This document shows, in pieces, positions 24,814 to 37,466 of a stretch of 37,466 nucleotides of DNA. Numbering within the stretch: position 1 is the stretch's first letter; each line of letters begins with the position of its first letter. This DNA comes from a virus. The notes beneath the pieces are model-generated. The model searched no databases, had not been told where the DNA came from, and worked only from the letters and a program-made list of their open reading frames with translations. The stretch is from positions 1 through 37,466 of the IMG/VR virus record IMGVR_UViG_3300047678_000250. The stretch is one strand, 5' to 3'. The position numbers and the translations under genes are program-made.

Positions 24814-25358
24814 GCGGCATTGATAGACCGCCCGCAATGGTCCACCCATTGCCCAATCTCCGCATAGCGCTGCAGGCTCACCCGTGTCAGCTGCTTCACG
24901 CGGTCCCGATGCATATGCCACGCGCTGGCGACCTGCTGACAACCGTAATTGTCCACGACGATCTTGAACGTCAAATCCGCCAGCGTGTATTGCTTCACCG
25001 GGATTTTCCCAGCCTCTTCCCGCCACGGCACGTACCGCTCATGATACGCGCGTATCAGCCCCGCCTGCCAATCCGTATGCCCCACACCCGCCGGCTGCCG
25101 TTCGTACTTCTGCACGGTTGCCCACAACCCGCTGGTGATCTTCACCCACAGCGCGCAAATCTCTTGCCCCGCCCGATATTGTTCTGGCGTCAGATTTCCC
25201 CGATTGAACAGCTCATCCATCACGCACGCGCGCCGGTGCCGCAGCGTCTCCGGCGTGGCATTTTCCTCCAGCTCGACAACCGCCTGTGTGCGCCGCGCGG
25301 CTTCCTGCTCGCGCCGCACACGGTCTGCCTCCTGGATGCGCTGCCATTCGGCGCTCAT
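24810..25358 (-). CDS. Putative late transcription regulator in Q position (unrecognised family)
   Basis: 182 residues, strongly charged, with an N-terminal coiled coil (EWQRIQEADRVRREQEAARR) and a C-terminal helix-turn-helix-like part (IVVDNYGCQQVASAWHMHRDRVKQLTRVS). I do not recognise the family. It is the last gene of the early operon, directly before a strong promoter and a terminator that precede the terminase genes. That is the place of Q in lambdoids and of RinA/ArpU regulators in Gram-positive phages. Role as late antiterminator or activator is inferred from this context and the HTH-like part. Confidence 0.6.
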   Translation of the reverse strand: MSAEWQRIQEADRVRREQEAARRTQAVVELEENATPETLRHRRACVMDELFNRGNLTPEQYRAGQEICALWVKITSGLWATVQKYERQPAGVGHTDWQAGLIRAYHERYVPWREEAGKIPVKQYTLADLTFKIVVDNYGCQQVASAWHMHRDRVKQLTRVSLQRYAEIGQWVDHCGRSINAA

Positions 25359-27384: not shown

Positions 27385-28919
27385 CACATCCCTCCCAACC
27401 ACTTCTGGCCCCACGCCGGCGACGCATCGCCTTCGCTCTCATCGCGAAACCAGATGGTCCGCGCATCGAATTTCATCCTGGTCATGCCGGTGGGGCCATT
27501 GCGGTTTTTCGCCAAGGAGAACATGGCCAGCCCTTCGGTGTGCGCAACCTGCGCATGCCAACGTTCAGTGCGCTCATCAAAATCCTCGACTTTTTCCTTA
27601 GCACCCCGCACCGGCTCGCCTTCCTGCATCAGGTAGTAATGTGGCCGGTGCGGAAAAATCACGACACTCGCATCCTGCTCCAGCGCGCCGGTCTCGCGCA
27701 GGTCACTCAGCTGCGGCAGCTTGTTCTCCCGCCGCTCATTCGCCCGGCTCAGTTGCGAAAGCAGCACCACCGGCACCTGCAGCTCCATCGCCAGCGCCTT
27801 GATATCCCGGCTAATCTCGGTCACCTGCTCATACAGACCCCGCTGCAGCAGCATCTTGCTGGCGCGCATCAGCCCCACGTAATCGATCACGATCAAATGC
27901 AGCTTGCCCGCGCGCTTCAACCGCCGCGCCCGCATCCGCAGTTGCGCCACCGTCACGCCTGACCGGTCATCGAAATAAAGCGGCAAAGTGGCAGCGTCGC
28001 GTTCCGCCTTCGTCAGCCAGTCCCACTCATGTGGCGTCAATTCACGTAATATTTTGGCAGCGCCAGGGTTGACACCATCTGGCAACTGCCAGCTTTTACC
28101 GCGGAACACATTCTGCACATCCAGCCCGGCATGCGCCGCCGCCAGCCGCGTCCCCAGCTGCACGGAGCTCATTTCGCCACTCCACAGCAGCACATGGTGG
28201 CCAAGGCTGGCCGCGCGCGCCGCGACACCCAAAGCCAGGCCACTTTTGCCCATCGCCGGCCGCGCCGCGATAATATGCACGTCCCCGGCCATCCAGCCGC
28301 CCATCATCCGGTTCAGCGCGGCATAGCCGGTATCCAGCCCCGCCAGGCTGTCAGCCCGCTTGCCGGCCGTGTAGCTGGCCTCAAGCGCCGCCTGCACCGC
28401 TTCCCCGGCCGGCACGGCCGGCACCACATCCCCAGCGCCCTCCGCAATCTGCGTCAGCCGGGTCTCCACCTCTTCCATAATCTCAACGCCCGACGCATCC
28501 CCCGGCGCGAACGCCCGGTTCACCATTTCCTCACCCATCTCGATCAGCTGCCGGCGCAGCCAGGCATCATGAATCGCCCGGCCATAATCCCCGGCGTTGA
28601 TAATCCCCACCATCGCGCCCAGCAGCCGGGTGATGTAAGCCATCCCACCAACCTCATCCAGCACGCCGCTATTCTCGAACGCCTTGTGCAGCGTTACCGC
28701 GTCCGCCACCTGGCCAGCATTCACCAGCTTCGCCAGCACGCCATAAATCCGCCCGTGGATCGGGTCCGCGAAATGCTCATCCCGCAAAAATTCACCCACG
28801 CGGTCATAGGCACGGTTATTGTTCAGCAGCGCGCCCAGCAGCGCCTGTTCCGCCTGCACATTCGCCGGCGGCAGCCGCTGGGAAATCCCCAGCAGCGGAT
28901 AATTGGAATCGTTATTCAC
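27384..28919 (-). CDS. dnaB: Replicative DNA helicase, DnaB type
   Basis: 511 residues. The N-terminal domain has the DnaB start (PPANVQAEQALLGALLNN), then a linker, and the RecA-like domain with Walker A ARPAMGKSG near residues 219-227, Walker B LIVIDYVGLM, and the LSQLSRANERRENKLPQLSDLRETGALEQDA motif. It unwinds DNA at the phage fork as a hexamer. It overlaps the upstream AAA+ gene by four bases. Length is close to host DnaB (about 500). Confidence 0.95.
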   Translation of the reverse strand: MNNDSNYPLLGISQRLPPANVQAEQALLGALLNNNRAYDRVGEFLRDEHFADPIHGRIYGVLAKLVNAGQVADAVTLHKAFENSGVLDEVGGMAYITRLLGAMVGIINAGDYGRAIHDAWLRRQLIEMGEEMVNRAFAPGDASGVEIMEEVETRLTQIAEGAGDVVPAVPAGEAVQAALEASYTAGKRADSLAGLDTGYAALNRMMGGWMAGDVHIIAARPAMGKSGLALGVAARAASLGHHVLLWSGEMSSVQLGTRLAAAHAGLDVQNVFRGKSWQLPDGVNPGAAKILRELTPHEWDWLTKAERDAATLPLYFDDRSGVTVAQLRMRARRLKRAGKLHLIVIDYVGLMRASKMLLQRGLYEQVTEISRDIKALAMELQVPVVLLSQLSRANERRENKLPQLSDLRETGALEQDASVVIFPHRPHYYLMQEGEPVRGAKEKVEDFDERTERWHAQVAHTEGLAMFSLAKNRNGPTGMTRMKFDARTIWFRDESEGDASPAWGQKWLGGM

Positions 28920-29863
28920 GCGCCCGCCTCACCCCGCACCGGCGGCCAGCTCAGCGCGCTCAGGCTTTGGTTTGCCACCCCCCACAGCGGCGGCCGCTCG
29001 ATCTCGGGCGGCGGCGCCACGGTCGTGACGACGCGTTCAAACACCTCAACCGGATTCGTCACATCCAGCCGCAACCGCGCCGCCAGCACCAGCTGCCGCT
29101 TCACGCCCTCCATTACGCCCCGCAACAGCGCCGGGCTCGCCCCCACCGTCAGCCCCGCCAGCAGGTCGAGGTCATCATCGGTAAATTCAAACGGCAGCAA
29201 GTACCGCTTGCAAATCGCGAAACGCTCATCAAAGCCCGGAATCTCAATCGGAATCTGCAAATGAAACCGCCGCCACAGCGCCTTGTCGATATCCTTCGGC
29301 CGGTTGGTCGCACCCAGCGCATACCCTTCATATTGCTCGATCTTGCGCAGCAGCACGCCCAGCAGAGACGTTCGCGCATTATCCGCGCCGCCATAGGTGT
29401 TTTTATCCCGACTGCCGCCAATCGCCTCCAGCTCATCGATGAACAGCACCGCCTCGCCAAAATTCCTCAATGTCTGAAACATCTTCGCCAGATTCTGTTC
29501 CGCCGCACCCCAGCCGGAACTGATGATATTTTCCGGCCCCATGCACACCAGCGGCAACCCCAGCCGCGCGGCCAGATGATGCGCCAACGTGGTCTTCCCA
29601 CAGCCCGGAGGGCCAAAAAGCAGCGCCGTCCCGCGCGGCCGCAATCCCACCGCTTTCAGCTCATCTTTCGCGCGAATTTCCGCCAGCCAGGAAAACAGCG
29701 CGCCCCGCACATTCGGCGTTAAAATCGGCTCTTCCGCATCTTCCGGCCGGCGCACTTCGCCCAGGCTGCCAATCAGCCTCTGCAGCTTGCTGCATTCGTC
29801 ATCGGCCTTGTCGCGCCCACGCGCTGGGGTATCGCCTTGCATCATCCGGTAGCCATCGCTCAT
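28916..29863 (-). CDS. AAA+ ATPase of classical FtsH/Cdc48 style, candidate helicase loader
   Basis: 315 residues with Walker A GPPGCGKT at 84-91, Walker B VLFIDE at 139-144, sensor-1 Asn187 in GATNRP and arginine finger candidates Arg198/199. This is the classical AAA type (as in FtsH or p97), without protease domain or membrane span. It sits directly before dnaB in the same overlapping operon, where a phage DnaC-like loader would be expected. Such loaders normally belong to the DnaA/DnaC clade, so this would be a different solution if true. A chaperone or unfoldase acting on host or phage proteins is the alternative. Confidence 0.8.
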   Translation of the reverse strand: MSDGYRMMQGDTPARGRDKADDECSKLQRLIGSLGEVRRPEDAEEPILTPNVRGALFSWLAEIRAKDELKAVGLRPRGTALLFGPPGCGKTTLAHHLAARLGLPLVCMGPENIISSGWGAAEQNLAKMFQTLRNFGEAVLFIDELEAIGGSRDKNTYGGADNARTSLLGVLLRKIEQYEGYALGATNRPKDIDKALWRRFHLQIPIEIPGFDERFAICKRYLLPFEFTDDDLDLLAGLTVGASPALLRGVMEGVKRQLVLAARLRLDVTNPVEVFERVVTTVAPPPEIERPPLWGVANQSLSALSWPPVRGEAGA

Positions 29864-30713: not shown

Positions 30714-31150
30714 GCCACGCCCTCCCGCCGGTCATGCGGCCGCACATAGGCGATGTCGCAATGCGCTTCGCAATACGGCCGCCCCGGCACGCTGCGCACA
30801 TCGCAAAACCGGAATGCAGAGGTGCCCGGATTACCGAACGGAAAGCAGCACGGAATAGATTTTTGCGATATTTTGGCCGGCAAAGGCGCGGGCGGCGGCA
30901 GGGGATAATCCGGCATCTCAATTTTCAACTTCGGCACCACTGGCTTTTCGCGCTTTGGCTTGGATACCTTCCGCTCACCCTCCGCGCCACGCCTTATCGG
31001 GCTGGGCCGCGCCGGCAGATTAAGCCGGTGCGCCTTCCCGACCACAGCGTTTTTCGAGATGCTCATGCGCCGGCCAATCTCTGTGGTGGAATGTCCGTCG
31101 CCCCACAGCCTGGCCAGCTCCGCTTTCTGCGCATCGTTCCAATCCGTCAT
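30710..31150 (-). CDS. gcrA: GcrA-family cell cycle regulator (phage-borne)
   Basis: 146 residues. The N-terminus (DWNDAQKAELARLWGDGHST, then AVVGKAHRLNLPARP) is the GcrA helix-turn-helix. A basic Pro-rich linker is followed by a Cys/His C-terminus (CCFPFGNPGTSAFRFC at 101-116, then C127 and H130 in RPYCEAHC). GcrA is an alphaproteobacterial co-regulator that acts with sigma70 at promoters carrying GANTC methylation by CcrM. Here it would help direct host RNA polymerase or interfere with the host cell cycle. The gene overlaps both neighbours by four bases. Confidence 0.92.
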   Translation of the reverse strand: MTDWNDAQKAELARLWGDGHSTTEIGRRMSISKNAVVGKAHRLNLPARPSPIRRGAEGERKVSKPKREKPVVPKLKIEMPDYPLPPPAPLPAKISQKSIPCCFPFGNPGTSAFRFCDVRSVPGRPYCEAHCDIAYVRPHDRREGVA

Positions 31151-31767
31151 AGCGCCCCCGCGATCACGAATTTCGGCATGCCCGCGGACACCCGCGCCGC
31201 ATTCACATGCACCAGGTTCAGCCCGCTATATTTCCCGCACAGCCCATTCAACCGCGCCCAGCGCCGCGCATCCTCATAACTTACCTTCACCGCATTCCTC
31301 TCAAAAAATGCCTCCGGCTCTTTTGGGGCCGGAGGCAAGGTAAGGGAGGAAACGCCAGTCACACTGCCCGCATCAGCCCCGGGCCCGGCATCCGTCCGCT
31401 GCGCCACATTGGTCGCCCCGGCCGAATCTGTTTGGCGCGCATCATGCCGCACGCTTTCATATTTCTCCTGCAGAGTTCTACGCGTTCTAACAAACCGGCC
31501 AGGCAGCGCGTTAATCGCAGCCTTTATCTCAATCCATTCCACCCCCTGGCGGCGCAGAGCCAGAAGCGTATTCACTTGCTCATCGGTCCAAGGGTTTTTG
31601 GTCCGAACTAAAAATGAGTATCTCGTTCGCATAGCGGCGCAGGATGGTATCGGCAGCCCAGGCATTGCATTCAGTTGGTCCAATAGCCAATCCGGAGAAA
31701 AGCTGGCGAGCTTTGCCAACAGGAGAGCATCGCGTGCTGGCGTCCATGTGCTTCCACCACGCATCAC
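31147..31767 (-). CDS. Hypothetical protein with two SANT/Myb-like helical segments
   Basis: 206 residues. Two segments look like SANT or GcrA-type DNA-binding units: STWTPARDALLLAKLASFS at about 6-24 and NPWTDEQVNTLLALRRQGV at about 58-76. A Ser/Thr/Ala-rich linker and a C-terminal part (VKVSYEDARRWARLNGLCGK) follow. It might regulate phage or host transcription. Not assigned to a known family. Overlaps neighbours by four bases on each side. Confidence 0.6.
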   Translation of the reverse strand: MMRGGSTWTPARDALLLAKLASFSPDWLLDQLNAMPGLPIPSCAAMRTRYSFLVRTKNPWTDEQVNTLLALRRQGVEWIEIKAAINALPGRFVRTRRTLQEKYESVRHDARQTDSAGATNVAQRTDAGPGADAGSVTGVSSLTLPPAPKEPEAFFERNAVKVSYEDARRWARLNGLCGKYSGLNLVHVNAARVSAGMPKFVIAGAL

Positions 31768-33984: not shown

Positions 33985-34614
33985 ATGATTTTTTTCCTCA
34001 TCATCCTGGCCGGCGCGGTCATCTGGGGCCTGATCAAACTCGGCAACCCGCTGAAACCACCCAAACGCACCAAGCTGCCGGAGCCGATCACCCCGGACAA
34101 TTTGCACCAGGCGCTGGCCCACATCGCCGAAACCTATGGCCGGCACGAGCATGAGGACGCGCACGACGAGGCCCACGGCCCCGCACCCATCCTCACGCCG
34201 GTAAAACGCGCCCGCGGCCGCCCGAAAGGTGCCAAAACCGCGACGCCATCCCACCTGGTGCCAAGATGGGACGTGCCGCCAACCGAGCCGGCCGCCCCAA
34301 AGCCGGTGGCCGAAACCACCCCGGCACAAGCCACGCAGGTTCTGGCCACGGCCCTCAAAATCCCGGCCATTCTGGTTTACGGCGCCGGCCACCACGCGGG
34401 TGAAAGCCGAGAGGTCATCATCACATCCGTGCTGGGCCACCACGCAGCCGGCGGCGAGTTCGCGATCGAAACCATCCGCTGCCTCTGCATCAAGGTAAAA
34501 CAGTTCCGCACCTTCAAGGTCGACAGCATCATCAGCCTGGCGGACGGCGCCACCGGCGAGATCGTCCCGGACGTTCAATCCTGGCTTAACGAAAAACTGG
34601 CCGCCTTGGTCTGA
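33985..34614 (+). CDS. Membrane-anchored protein with AT-hook and WYL-like domain
   Basis: 209 residues. Residues 1-18 (MIFFLIILAGAVIWGLIK) form a membrane anchor. A His/Glu/Asp-rich stretch (51-64) and a basic KRARGRPKGAK at 74-84 follow; RGRPKG is an AT-hook core. Residues about 127-192 (IPAILVYGAGHHAGESREVI, then RCLCIKVKQFRTFKVDSIISL) resemble a WYL ligand-sensing domain, including the RTF..DSI motif. The start at 33985 is chosen as the anchor start; an earlier ATG at 33943 would add 14 residues. Plus-strand gene between two minus-strand genes, so possibly a lysogen-expressed gene. Confidence 0.6.
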   Translation: MIFFLIILAGAVIWGLIKLGNPLKPPKRTKLPEPITPDNLHQALAHIAETYGRHEHEDAHDEAHGPAPILTPVKRARGRPKGAKTATPSHLVPRWDVPPTEPAAPKPVAETTPAQATQVLATALKIPAILVYGAGHHAGESREVIITSVLGHHAAGGEFAIETIRCLCIKVKQFRTFKVDSIISLADGATGEIVPDVQSWLNEKLAALV

Positions 34615-34673
34615 TTCTGCGGAGAGTTTCCGCATGACGAGACCACGGTATTCGGTCATATCGCCTGCCATGC

Positions 34674-34874
34674 TCATGCTGCGTCCGAAGGTGGATACAA
34701 ATCAGGCCGAAGAACTTCCCGCCGAATTCCGGTTACCCTTTCCACATCAATCACCCGCCCGCCGGGAATCCGATTGGCGTTTCGCCACCCAATCACCGAG
34801 GTGTGGTGAACCTTCACGCTATCGGCCAGCTTCGCCACGCCACCGGCTAGTTGAATGACTTCTGAAACGTCCAT
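34674..34874 (-). CDS. Cro/YdaS-like DNA-binding protein
   Basis: 66 residues. It follows the YdaS/Cro pattern: VIQLAGGVAKLADSVKVHHTSVIGWRNANRIPGGRVIDVERVTG, with a helix-turn-helix at about 12-32 and the RIP motif. It would bind the operators next to its promoter and oppose the repressor at 34969-35316, to which it is divergent. The start codon lies only about 10 bases from operator 34885-34899, leaving no room for a Shine-Dalgarno sequence, so the mRNA may be leaderless. It is followed by the terminator region on the way to the replication genes. Confidence 0.85.
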   Translation of the reverse strand: MDVSEVIQLAGGVAKLADSVKVHHTSVIGWRNANRIPGGRVIDVERVTGIRREVLRPDLYPPSDAA

Positions 34875-34884
34875 GAGCCAATTA

Positions 34885-34899
34885 GTGGGAGATTCCCAC
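34885..34899. promoter_or_regulatory. Operator O1 (GTGGGAGATTCCCAC)
   Basis: Palindrome with GTGGGA/TCCCAC arms. It overlaps the -10 region of the leftward promoter whose -35 box is at 34911-34906. Confidence 0.8.
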
Positions 34900-34905
34900 C
34901 TATTT

Positions 34906-34911
34906 TGTCAA
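34906..34911 (-). promoter_or_regulatory. Leftward early promoter -35 box (TTGACA)
   Basis: Perfect TTGACA on the minus strand, between operators O1 and O2; the -10 (ACTAAT region, 34886-34881, spacing 19) is weaker. It would drive the cro-like gene and, if read through, the leftward operon. Confidence 0.65.
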
Positions 34912-34968: not shown

Positions 34969-35316
34969 ATGAATTCAATCGCAGAACGCTTGAGATCATT
35001 ACGGGAACAACGTAAGGTGTCCCAGGTAGACGTTGCAGTTGCCGTGGAGATTGCAAGGTCAACCCTATCAAAATATGAAACCGGCGGTGATATTCCGGGC
35101 AGGGATACACTTATGAAATTGGCTCAATTTTATGGTGTGACTGTAGATTGGTTGGCCGCCAGCGCTGGCGATATGCTCGATCGCGAGGCCGGAACAGCAA
35201 AAACTGAACAAGAAGCCTTAATGCTTTGGGCGTTTCGCTCTCTCCCCGCGGACGAGGCCTCGGCTCATCTGAATCTGCTAATTAGCCGCGCCAAGAAGAG
35301 CAAACCTTCTTCGTAA
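34969..35316 (+). CDS. Short CI-like repressor (HTH_3), without peptidase domain
   Basis: 115 residues. The helix-turn-helix at about 17-38 (VSQVDVAVAVEIARSTLSKYE) and following GG.IPGRDTLMKLAQFYGVTVDWL are typical of XRE repressors. The C-terminal 50 residues are too short to form an S24 peptidase, so RecA-triggered self-cleavage is not expected. It is the obvious lysogeny regulator, and the four GTGGG(N5)CCCAC sites are its likely operators. The start at 34969 has no Shine-Dalgarno sequence, so leaderless translation is possible; an upstream frame from 34855 would read through both operators and is rejected. Confidence 0.88.
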   Translation: MNSIAERLRSLREQRKVSQVDVAVAVEIARSTLSKYETGGDIPGRDTLMKLAQFYGVTVDWLAASAGDMLDREAGTAKTEQEALMLWAFRSLPADEASAHLNLLISRAKKSKPSS

Positions 35317-35326
35317 CAAAAGAACA

Positions 35327-35758
35327 GTGCCAACCGCGCGAACAAAGATTTTTTGGGGTATTATCGGTTTTTTGGGCGCGGTGACGATCGCAACCCAAAT
35401 CTCTAAACCGTCCCAACCAGCTACAACGCCTGCATCACCATCGAATCCAGCTCTTTTTAAACAATGCCAAGAGGTCATTAACGGTTTCAAAAGCGGCGGC
35501 ATGATAAAATCTCTGACCTGGTCGCAGGGCGGTACGATGACAAACTACAATATGGTCGTTAATCAATCGATATGGGATACCATTGATTTTCCAACAAAAA
35601 GTGGAGTTGCCAAGGCTGCGGCGTGCGAAGCCGTAAACGGCAATCAGTCCGCGCAGGTCGAAGGAACAATTTACGACAGCATGAACAACAATGAGTTGGG
35701 CGATTTTTCAGGGTTCACAGGCGAATTCACATCGAAGGAACCACTTACCGGCCCTTAA
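35327..35758 (+). CDS. Membrane-anchored or secreted protein, probable lysogenic conversion gene
   Basis: 143 residues. An N-terminal signal/anchor (KIFWGIIGFLGAVTIATQI) is followed by a Pro/Ser linker and a Cys-containing folded part (FKQCQEVINGFKSGGMIKSL, ACEAVNGN). It starts with a GTG 10 bases after the repressor stop on the same strand, so it is probably made with the repressor in lysogens. Codon use is AT-richer than in the phage late genes. No family recognised. Its position suggests a role in the lysogen, such as superinfection exclusion (inference). Confidence 0.65.
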   Translation: MPTARTKIFWGIIGFLGAVTIATQISKPSQPATTPASPSNPALFKQCQEVINGFKSGGMIKSLTWSQGGTMTNYNMVVNQSIWDTIDFPTKSGVAKAAACEAVNGNQSAQVEGTIYDSMNNNELGDFSGFTGEFTSKEPLTGP

Positions 35759-35800
35759 GCGCGAAATTTCCGCGAACCGGAATAAATTTTAGCGGCGCAT

Positions 35801-35815
35801 GTGGGGAAACCCCAC
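35801..35815. promoter_or_regulatory. Operator O3 (GTGGGGAAACCCCAC)
   Basis: Third copy of the operator, perfect palindrome within ATGTGGGG...CCCCACAT. It lies seven bases upstream of TTGACA at 35823. Confidence 0.8.
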
Positions 35816-35822
35816 ATTTCTG

Positions 35823-35828
35823 TTGACA
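35823..35828 (+). promoter_or_regulatory. Rightward early promoter -35 box (TTGACA)
   Basis: Perfect TTGACA between operators O3 and O4, mirroring the leftward promoter at 34911-34906. The -10 is weak (ACTAGAT region, about 35847-35854). It would drive the chain of small genes from 35881. Confidence 0.65.
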
Positions 35829-35833
35829 AGAAT

Positions 35834-35848
35834 GTGGGAACTCCCCAC
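35834..35848. promoter_or_regulatory. Operator O4 (GTGGGAACTCCCCAC)
   Basis: Fourth operator copy, five bases after the -35 box, so a bound repressor would cover the -10 region. Confidence 0.8.
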
Positions 35849-35855
35849 TAGATGC

Positions 35856-35875
35856 CCTCCATCACCCGATGGAGG
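35856..35875 (+). promoter_or_regulatory. Perfect 8-bp hairpin hiding the first ribosome-binding site of the rightward operon
   Basis: CCTCCATC (35856-35863) pairs fully with GATGGAGG (35868-35875) across four bases. The right arm contains GGAGG, the only Shine-Dalgarno sequence for the next gene. Translation of the first gene, and coupled genes after it, could be restricted until the hairpin is opened. If transcription starts inside the left arm, the element may instead be a DNA-binding palindrome. Confidence 0.55.
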
Positions 35876-35880
35876 TTTCA

Positions 35881-36126
35881 TTGCACCCCGTTCACCGCAT
35901 CCTCAGCATCAGCGGTTTAGCCGGCCTTCTGCTTGACCGTATCGCGCTTCCACCACTTTTGCCCGTCGCTCACCCGCCTGACCACGGCGGTAAGCGCCTT
36001 CCCGAATATCGGCATATCTCGGCCGCGCGCCGTGAATGGATGCAGGGCCATCTCCGGCCCGAAAGCCGCGAATGCCAGCGCCGCGCCCGCCAGATTGCCG
36101 CCGGCACTCTGCAGGTGTCCAAATGA
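35881..36126 (+). CDS. First small gene of the rightward operon (unrecognised)
   Basis: 81 residues from a TTG start five bases after GGAGG; the alternative is an ATG at 35869 in the same frame, with no ribosome-binding site. It is His/Arg/Pro-rich, with a predicted helix in LSISGLAGLLLDRI and a basic tail (RRARQIAAG). No family recognised. Its stop overlaps the next start (ATGA). It is under the twin operators O3/O4. Confidence 0.5.
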   Translation: MHPVHRILSISGLAGLLLDRIALPPLLPVAHPPDHGGKRLPEYRHISAARREWMQGHLRPESRECQRRARQIAAGTLQVSK

Positions 36127-36284
36127 TCACCCCGCACCGCCAGCCGGAATCCCCCTGGCAATTCCTCCGCCGCAGCAAGCGTGAAGCCGCCATCGGCCTC
36201 ACCGCCGGCATAACCATCGCCGCCGGCGCCAAATACATCTGCGCGGCCTTCCTCATCCTCTGGCTCGCGGCCGGCGGCCAATGA
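36123..36284 (+). CDS. Small membrane protein, rightward operon
   Basis: 53 residues. A hydrophilic start (MITPHRQPESPWQF) is followed by a basic FLRRSKREAA and one or two hydrophobic stretches (AIGLTAGITIAAGAKYICAAFLILWLA). It overlaps both neighbours by four bases (ATGA). Too short for family assignment. Confidence 0.5.
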   Translation: MITPHRQPESPWQFLRRSKREAAIGLTAGITIAAGAKYICAAFLILWLAAGGQ

Positions 36285-36430
36285 CCCCGCGCCAATACTT
36301 GCCCCGAGGCCATCGCGCAGTCCGCTTGGCCGCCACGCTTGCCATCATCACCGGCATATTCGCCGGCCTGTTCGCCATCGGCGTGATGATCGGCCTTGGC
36401 CTGCTGGTCTTGCATGGCGGCGCCAAGTGA
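36281..36430 (+). CDS. Very small membrane protein, rightward operon
   Basis: 49 residues with a single long hydrophobic stretch (LAAT..IITGIFAGLFAIGVMIGLGLLVL) after a basic N-terminus (TPRQYLPRGHRAVR). Coupled by ATGA on the left and GTGA on the right. The gene is too short for automatic calling; no family recognised. Confidence 0.5.
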   Translation: MTPRQYLPRGHRAVRLAATLAIITGIFAGLFAIGVMIGLGLLVLHGGAK

Positions 36431-36735
36431 AAGCGCGGCGACCCAGCGTGGATGAATACCGCTGCACCGGCCGCAGCACGCACCAGATGCAGGAGGCACC
36501 ACCCGGCGCGGTCTTCGTATGCGCGTTCCATCACCAGTTGCGCTATTTCCGCCGCCTCGCAAAATATCGCGGCCGGCCGGACCTGCGGATTGTCTCCATC
36601 CACGAAATGGTCAGCTCCGAGGCTCCCGCCGGGTACCAAAGTCCCATCGTGGTGGACCACGCCGCGCTGGCCCTCCTGCGCCCGGAAATGCTGGCCCGCA
36701 TCCACATCCACAACTGCACGCAGGTGCCCGCATGA
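36427..36735 (+). CDS. Hypothetical protein, rightward operon
   Basis: 102 residues starting from a GTG that overlaps the previous stop (GTGA). Contains Cys and His (EYRCTGRSTHQ, VFVCAFHHQ, HIHNCTQ) and a basic helix (LRYFRRLAKYRGR). The Cys/His arrangement might bind metal, but no family is recognised. It ends with an ATGA overlap. Confidence 0.55.
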   Translation: MKARRPSVDEYRCTGRSTHQMQEAPPGAVFVCAFHHQLRYFRRLAKYRGRPDLRIVSIHEMVSSEAPAGYQSPIVVDHAALALLRPEMLARIHIHNCTQVPA

Positions 36736-36905
36736 GCAGCTTAAGCTTCCGCGTCCGCATGCCCCGCGCCACGCCGCCAAAACCAGCCCGGCCGCCACGC
36801 CACAACTGCGCAGCCTGTTGGGCCACGGCCTTTGCGCTGTGCTGCCTGCTGCTGGCCATGCTGGCCTACACCATCGCCTCCGTCGCGTTCGGGGCGCCGG
36901 TATGA
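36732..36905 (+). CDS. Small membrane protein, rightward operon
   Basis: 57 residues: basic first half (RVRMPRATPPKPARPPRH) and a hydrophobic Cys-rich second half (CAACWATAFALCCLLLAMLAYTIASVA). One membrane span is likely. ATGA overlaps on both sides; no family recognised. Confidence 0.5.
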   Translation: MSSLSFRVRMPRATPPKPARPPRHNCAACWATAFALCCLLLAMLAYTIASVAFGAPV

Positions 36906-37102
36906 CCCGCCGCATCCAGGATAACTCCCTGTTCGCCGCGCGCCACGCGCTCCAAATCGCCCGGGAACGTCTCGAAATCGCGCAATTCATCCTGCGTGAA
37001 CGAGAGGATCACCTTCGGGCGTTACTCGCGGGCCTCACCGCCGCGCCAGTGAACGCCGTTCACTCTCAAACACCGGAAAGCCCGCGCCATGCCCTGGACT
37101 GA
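36902..37102 (+). CDS. Small coiled-coil protein, rightward operon
   Basis: 66 residues with a charged amphipathic helix in the middle (ALQIARERLEIAQFILRERE, then DHLRALLAG). Overlaps the previous gene by four and the next by 14 bases. A copy of the GTGAACGCCGTTCAC motif lies near its end. No family recognised. Confidence 0.5.
   Translation: MTRRIQDNSLFAARHALQIARERLEIAQFILREREDHLRALLAGLTAAPVNAVHSQTPESPRHALD
37049..37063 (+). repeat. Dispersed motif copy: GTGAACGCCGTTCAC
   Basis: Full 15-base palindrome near the end of the small gene at 36902-37102. With three flanking bases it matches the copy at 12699 over 18 bases (CCAGTGAACGCCGTTCAC). Confidence 0.6.
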
Positions 37103-37466
37103 AATCACCGACATCAAGCCGGTCAAACAGAAAACCGCTGAAATCGCCATGGGCATTTCCACCAACGGCGCCGGCGGCCGGTTCGCGCAAACCCTGCGCT
37201 TCCTGTTCCGCCCGTCCGCGCTCAACCTTACGTGGTTGCAGACGGGCGAAACCGTCAAAGTGGAACTCGGCACCGGCGAGGATAGCGGCTTCCTCCGCAT
37301 CACGCCGAACGGCCCCCACACGCTGCGCAGCCCGCCAACAAAAACCTCCAGGCACGCCAGCACTTTAAAAATACCGGCCCCGCCACGCATGCATCCGCAA
37401 AAACGCCCGCTGGAGGCAGCGGACTATAAAATCGCCGGGGGGGGGGGTATCGTCAGCACCTTGCCG
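37089..37466 (+). CDS. Hypothetical protein, rightward operon (continues past the window)
   Basis: The first 126 residues are visible, starting MPWTEITDIKPVKQK. The N-terminal part is beta-like (AQTLRFLFRPSALNLTWL, VKVELGTGEDSGFLRITPNG) and resembles small regulatory-region proteins of alphaproteobacterial phages that end in a LPDW-like motif, which is consistent with the visible VSTLP, but this is only an impression. An 11-base G run lies near the window end and encodes Gly-Gly-Gly-Gly. The 3' end is missing. Confidence 0.55.
   Translation, partial: MPWTEITDIKPVKQKTAEIAMGISTNGAGGRFAQTLRFLFRPSALNLTWLQTGETVKVELGTGEDSGFLRITPNGPHTLRSPPTKTSRHASTLKIPAPPRMHPQKRPLEAADYKIAGGGGIVSTLP
37437..37447. 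repeat. Homopolymer of 11 G
   Basis: A mononucleotide run inside the last visible gene. It is the only long G run seen in the window. It could be a sequencing error, or a phase-variable tract if the length differs between cells. Confidence 0.6.

Follow-up and report, generated by a model that had tools for sequence, protein, structure and literature searches.

A candidate start-site-embedded Shine-Dalgarno lock at the pL-type early promoter of a temperate phage group

The phage and its immunity region

The window analyzed here is the whole of the IMG/VR virus record IMGVR_UViG_3300047678_000250 and comprises 37,466 bases. Its minus strand encodes tail, capsid, portal, terminase, DnaB, AAA, GapR-like and cII-like genes, a set that indicates a siphophage-type temperate phage. 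The phage is lambda-like, and its host is probably an alphaproteobacterium, since the GapR family was matched in Caulobacter alone among 14 control genomes and the nearest plasmid-borne relatives of DnaB came from Azospirillum and other alphaproteobacteria. No relative was found when known phages were searched with the DNA or when bacterial genomes were searched with cI and with the terminase, and tblastn of cI in phages and plasmids returned just distant HTH proteins.

At the right end of the window, a cro-like gene on the minus strand and a cI gene on the plus strand diverge around repeated operators. The plus-strand order is cI, one further gene and then a chain of small genes. The features in front of the chain were as follows:

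34674-34874, minus strand: cro-like gene that opens the divergent lytic operon of rightward type, with a homologue in the related phage L003
34885-34899 and 34921-34935, unstranded: OR, two exact GTGGGNNNNNCCCAC predicted operators, enclosing the minus-strand pR -35 box TTGACA
34969-35316, plus strand: cI-type repressor, a small HTH protein of 115 aa, with PHROG transcriptional repressor/regulator matches to 3e-18
35327-35758, plus strand: lysogeny-operon-type gene between cI and OL with a secreted or membrane-anchored product; homologue at the same place in L003 (46% identity)
35801-35815 and 35834-35848, unstranded: OL, two exact GTGGGNNNNNCCCAC predicted operators, flanking the pL -35 box TTGACA (35823-35828)
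35856-35875, plus strand: hairpin masking a Shine-Dalgarno (SD) sequence; left arm 35856-35863, loop 35864-35867, right arm 35868-35875

The longest ORF of cI begins at 34855, but the ATG at 34969 sits just beyond OR. The GTGGGNNNNNCCCAC palindrome has four mismatch-free sites in the window, two per promoter, and none elsewhere in it. As identical operator pairs and TTGACA occur at both promoters, the two sites before the chain were assigned as OL, and these elements identify the chain as the pL-type early operon of this lambda-like phage. We infer that cI represses at the OL and OR sites.

The records behind four terminase relatives (L016, L017, L018 and L021) contained neither this cI nor these operators. 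The record behind L016 (L155) belongs to a sister phage with 92-98% identity to the window over long terminase and replication stretches. It diverges from the window past 34687 (compared region 34441-34687) and carries a different HTH gene set without these operators; as read from the two sequences, the difference is an immunity-module swap.

The chain of small genes

The chain begins 5 nt downstream of the hairpin-embedded SD and runs to the end of the contig. Its genes, all on the plus strand, were:

35881-36126, plus strand: gene 1, TTG start, 81 aa, no family, strong SD; absent from L003
36123-36284, plus strand: gene 2, ATGA junction, 53 aa, hydrophobic stretch, likely membrane protein
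36281-36430, plus strand: gene 3, ATGA junction, 49 aa, hydrophobic stretch, likely membrane protein
36427-36735, plus strand: gene 4, GTG start, GTGA junction, 102 aa
36732-36905, plus strand: gene 5, ATGA junction, 57 aa, hydrophobic stretch, likely membrane protein
36902-37102, plus strand: gene 6, ATGA junction, 66 aa, weak PHROG match of unknown function (E = 0.004)
37089-37466, plus strand: gene 7, 14-base overlap, running off the contig end

The seven overlapping ORFs from TTG 35881 that the first-pass annotation had listed were reproduced exactly, with four ATGA junctions, one GTGA junction and one 14-base overlap. The contig end at 37466 cuts the chain, so at least seven is a lower bound on the gene number. 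A run of G at ~37438-37448 lies near this end inside gene 7, and the end of that ORF may be an assembly error.

The suggestion that these genes hold anti-defence or host take-over functions found no support, as no Pfam, PADLOC or informative PHROG match was obtained. Gene 4 had no relative in viral contigs and no family match, and gene 1 was not conserved even in L003, the nearest relative. The homologue of gene 2 is the first pL gene of L003 (39% identity, E = 7e-6), and L003 encodes a comparable 43-aa protein at a position like that of gene 5. ATGA coupling was discarded as a special feature of the chain, because the same 4-base overlaps occur among the minus-strand ORFs of the window (for example 25355-25358, 28916-28919, 29860-29863, 31147-31150 and 31764-31767). 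The anti-SD energy was -10.0 for gene 1 and -3.5 to -5.0 for genes 2-7; weak SDs are usual among the genes of this phage. Coupled translation would carry any control of gene 1 to the downstream genes.

A hairpin masks the SD of the first gene

The leader of gene 1 contains a perfect 8-bp hairpin, CCTCCATC-ACCC-GATGGAGG, whose 3' arm includes the GGAGG at 35871-35875. The fold z-scores of this hairpin were -3.0 to -4.2, and the predicted cost of opening the SD was 12.9 kcal/mol compared with 6.3 ± 1.7 in shuffled leaders (p = 0.007). The earlier observation that the sole strong SD of the chain sits in the arm of a perfect 8-bp hairpin was thus upheld, and by the fold and shuffle tests the arrangement is beyond chance. 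Masks as strong as those of this phage and its relatives were found for ~1-10% of ordinary SD-led ORFs. Rfam gave no match above a family threshold. A leaderless start at the ATG at 35852, upstream of the hairpin, was considered as an alternative and rejected as not common to the relatives: at the equivalent position, L003 and L047 have an ATG in the reading frame of gene 1, the ATG of the window is out of frame, and L097 has an out-of-frame GTG.

Relatives share the layout of the locus

Relatives were collected by scanning IMG/VR for paired operators and then for TTGAC 9-14 nt before an operator, and also by searches with the repressor. Most of the listed loci with paired GTGGGNNNNNCCCAC were set aside because they had no TTGAC at this distance; many of them were repeats of the GTGGGCGGGACCCACC type. 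At least 12 promoters in at least six distinct phages were retained, namely the window, L003, L047, L097, L116 and L123. L003, of which L004 is an identical copy, has the same layout as the window and a cI that is 64% identical to that of the window. The window cI shared 38-68% identity with the cI of the five relatives, and the six proteins, with 34-79% identity, formed three groups (window and L003; L047, L097 and L116; L123).

The geometry of operator and TTGAC recurs at pL and pR of the five other phages. The operators at pL are paired in L003, L047 and L097, and L116 and L123 have an operator at the same TTGAC spacing. The cI side and the chain lie on one strand in six of six phages, and 27-64 nt separate the upstream stop codon from the pL -35 box. 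The lysogeny operon in front of pL consists of cI with or without one further gene; other signal-peptide-like genes stand between cI and OL in L047, L097 and L116.

Downstream of pL, all six phages carry a run of small ORFs, mostly linked by 4-base overlaps. Gene content hardly overlaps between the runs, which in the relatives were chosen by a simple greedy script, so that single genes may be wrong. Gene 1 of L047 matches gene 2 of L097, and gene 14 of L047 matches gene 13 of L097, an excisionase-like HTH gene (HTH_17); judged by eye, the L097 run reaches an integrase-like ORF. Comparison of the locus in relatives therefore bore out the chain as a shared layout with overlaps, and not as a set of genes, since the individual genes differ. 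The genes that fill this common layout are, by the same comparison, accessory and fast-changing.

Two further observations were made among these contigs. Paired GTGGGCGGGACCCACC-type repeats ~35-45 bases apart and without the TTGAC promoter geometry form a separate repeat family in viral contigs (L038, L052, L065, L074, L075, L080, L082, L084, L095 and L106). A stretch of 46 bases in L047 (11082-11127) is 96% identical to Ruegeria plasmids and is possibly a tRNA or attachment-site remnant.

The hairpin is conserved in structure and variable in sequence

The leaders after OL2 fold into a hairpin with GGAG(G) in the 3' arm at the same spot in six of six phages. The hairpins of the relatives, each with its shuffle p value (SD kept), were:

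L003: CCATCG-TTC-CGATGG-A-GG (p = 0.001)
L047: CCATCGC-ACCCC-GCGATGG-A-GC (p = 0.017)
L097: TCCATCGT-TCACCC-ACGATGGA-GC (p = 0.011)
L116: CCATCAC-ACCAC-GTGATGG-A-GG (p = 0.043)
L123: GCCTCCA-CCGAAGC-TGGAGGC (p = 0.044)

Together with the window, the combined p value was 3e-7 when the six phages were treated as independent, which holds only partly: identity is 71-79% among three of the cI proteins, and the DNA across pL is still similar between L047 and L116. Two pairs changed on both sides, the inner G-C to A-T in L116 and the next C-G to T-A in L097, in a small sample of six leaders compared by eye. Arm sequence and loop length differ among the phages, and the spacing from CCATC to GATGG ranges from 4 to 10 nt.

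A hairpin at this place might also act on transcription, as an intrinsic terminator or attenuator of read-through or as a nut- or put-like antitermination signal on the pL RNA. The leaders of lambda and HK022 pL bear antitermination elements, the terminator scan listed the window hairpin with a TTTCATT tail, and TTTTT follows the hairpin in L047 and L116. However, the U-run is weak or absent in L003, L097 and L123, whereas SD masking is found in all six; a simple boxA pattern occurs near pL in one of the six phages, and a put or nut element would need to lie entirely within the pL RNA. We consider a role of the hairpin in transcription quite improbable.

The predicted pL start lies inside the left arm

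The position of the transcription start decides which RNA would carry the mask. In each of the six phages, the cro ATG has its A at a distance of 36-37 nt from the first T of the pR -35 box and 10-11 nt past the operator (region 34872-34911 in the window). The +1 of lambda pR and pL is at offset 35 by the same count. The cro ATG thus coincides with the expected pR +1 in six of six phages, and its mRNA probably has no leader or almost none. Offsets 31-41 at pL are spanned by the left arm of the hairpin. Five phages have the A of CCATC (CCACC in L123) at offset 35-37, the window has it at 38, and the A of CA in the left arm is 10-13 nt past OL2, similar to the A of the cro ATG at the six pR. The pL +1 is accordingly predicted to fall within the left arm in all six phages, at ~35858-35861 in the window. 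The -10 boxes are poor matches to TATAAT at both pL and pR, and pL was not called by an automatic promoter scan, so the predicted start rests on the -35 box and the comparison with pR.

An mRNA from a start inside the left arm should lack the full hairpin, and the mask would then act on read-through RNA of the lysogeny operon. The predicted cost of opening the SD was about 8-13 kcal/mol in the read-through RNA of five of the six phages and 0.2-6 kcal/mol in RNA from the predicted +1; L047 is the exception, as a competing upstream pairing cuts the predicted mask in its long RNA to about 3.4 kcal/mol. The drop in cost falls just inside the range of plausible starts. A start at offset 34 or earlier in the window would leave the mask in pL mRNA, which is the weak point of the argument. 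As the leaders are just 19-25 nt long, the position of the hairpin relative to +1 is also partly forced.

These positions bear on the earlier proposal that opening of the hairpin turns on the whole chain. The SD mask itself stood, as did its possible leverage over the coupled chain, in which only the SD of gene 1 is strong; with +1 predicted inside the left arm in six phages, a trigger on the operon's own mRNA became less likely. For the mask to act there, pL would have to start upstream of the hairpin, and a protein, an sRNA, temperature or the ribosome would open it and switch on the chain. The strength and conservation of the hairpin and the weakness of the internal SDs agree with such a switch, and a precedent exists in the isrK/anrP region of Gifsy-1, where a translationally inactive read-through mRNA is activated in trans by a short sRNA (PMC4825925). 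It requires, however, a +1 at an offset of at most 32 from the -35 T (spacer ~14 bp), against the ~35-37 indicated by the cro ATG at six pR and by the lambda promoters, and the variable left arm shows no conserved opener site. A mask on the operon's own mRNA was therefore regarded as unlikely.

The dyad could instead act at the DNA level, for instance as an additional operator by which Cro or some other regulator binds the transcription start. It adjoins OL2 and spans the predicted +1, and five of the six phages have CCATC and GATGG. A dimer of fixed geometry could not tolerate half-sites spaced by 4-10 nt, however, and it is the complementarity that is kept: the letters differ in L123 (CCTCCA/TGGAGG). 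There is also no such dyad at pR, and this explanation appears very improbable.

A proposed translational lock on read-through RNA

The operators, -35 boxes, gene order, hairpin with its SD and predicted change in SD accessibility found in the six phage sequences are best explained by a start-site-embedded SD lock on the chain, a pL-type operon putatively repressed by the small cI, and we consider this explanation rather likely. The small cI would repress pL at the two OL operators that flank its -35 box. Because the pL operon follows the lysogeny operon head-to-tail and the gap leaves little space for a terminator, transcripts begun at the cI promoter could extend into the chain in the lysogen. 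On this read-through RNA the hairpin after OL2 would form a second, translational lock, as both arms would be present and the RNA silent. Since the hidden SD is the sole strong one and the downstream genes are ATGA-joined with weak SDs, much of the chain should be silenced with it. Upon induction, pL would start inside the left arm and produce an mRNA without part of that arm, in which the SD would be free and the coupled chain translated. cI bound at OL would block pL and perhaps slow read-through.

For the group as a whole, temperate phages probably of alphaproteobacteria, we hold it moderately likely that the lytic early operon is insulated from lysogeny-operon read-through by a pL start lying within an SD-masking hairpin's 5' arm, with promoter identity read as translatability, and that pR makes leaderless cro. 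A repressor operon points here into the early lytic operon, and leaky read-through could harm the lysogen. If the proposal is true, the conserved promoter-specific translatability would give lysogeny a second lock in addition to the repressor. The model predicts which transcript gets translated, and paired GTGGGNNNNNCCCAC sites with TTGAC and a hairpin over +1 would serve as a signature for finding such switches in unannotated phages.

Comparison with known systems

The locus resembles the lambda immunity region in its divergent cro and cI, its paired operators at two promoters and its early operon of small genes, which in L097 continues to the excisionase-like gene and the integrase-like ORF. 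Unlike in lambda, cI is head-to-tail with pL on the strand of the chain, cI is one small HTH protein, and cro looks leaderless. To our knowledge, no SD-masking hairpin is known at lambda pL.

The principle of the lock is already known from T4. The SDs of T4 e, soc, 49 and I-TevI are hidden in transcripts initiated upstream, transcripts begun at a nearby late promoter are missing the structure's 5' portion, and SD hiding lowers lysozyme synthesis from gene e 100-fold (PMC3014915, PMC2988022). The arrangement proposed here is like that of e, soc and I-TevI, in that a helix hides the SD in the long RNA and the gene's own promoter starts, here by prediction, within or after the 5' arm. The T4 locks delay late genes within one lytic programme, whereas the present one would separate lysogenic from lytic expression and heads an early operon under cI operators. 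Transposable elements offer a second parallel: IS10/Tn10 is protected from impinging transcription by occlusion of the ribosome-binding site. The same protection is ascribed to IS200 in work cited in PMC3196728. In the present case the threat is the phage's own lysogeny operon rather than host promoters, and the protected gene is no transposase. Gifsy-1 isrK/anrP shares with the proposed lock an inactive read-through prophage RNA and differs in that activation is by an sRNA in trans and not by another start site. In the literature on read-through masks, temperate-phage early promoters and lambda-type switches, covered in part and mostly as titles and abstracts, no such lock at a temperate-phage pL was found, and its placement there is apparently unreported.

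The OL1 operator of the window can itself fold: the terminator scan listed an 8-bp stem at 35799-35817 on the strand of the lysogeny operon, with TTCTGTTG after it, and TTTTT follows OL1 in L097. Speculatively, OL1 of the window could double as a weak terminator and form a third barrier to read-through.
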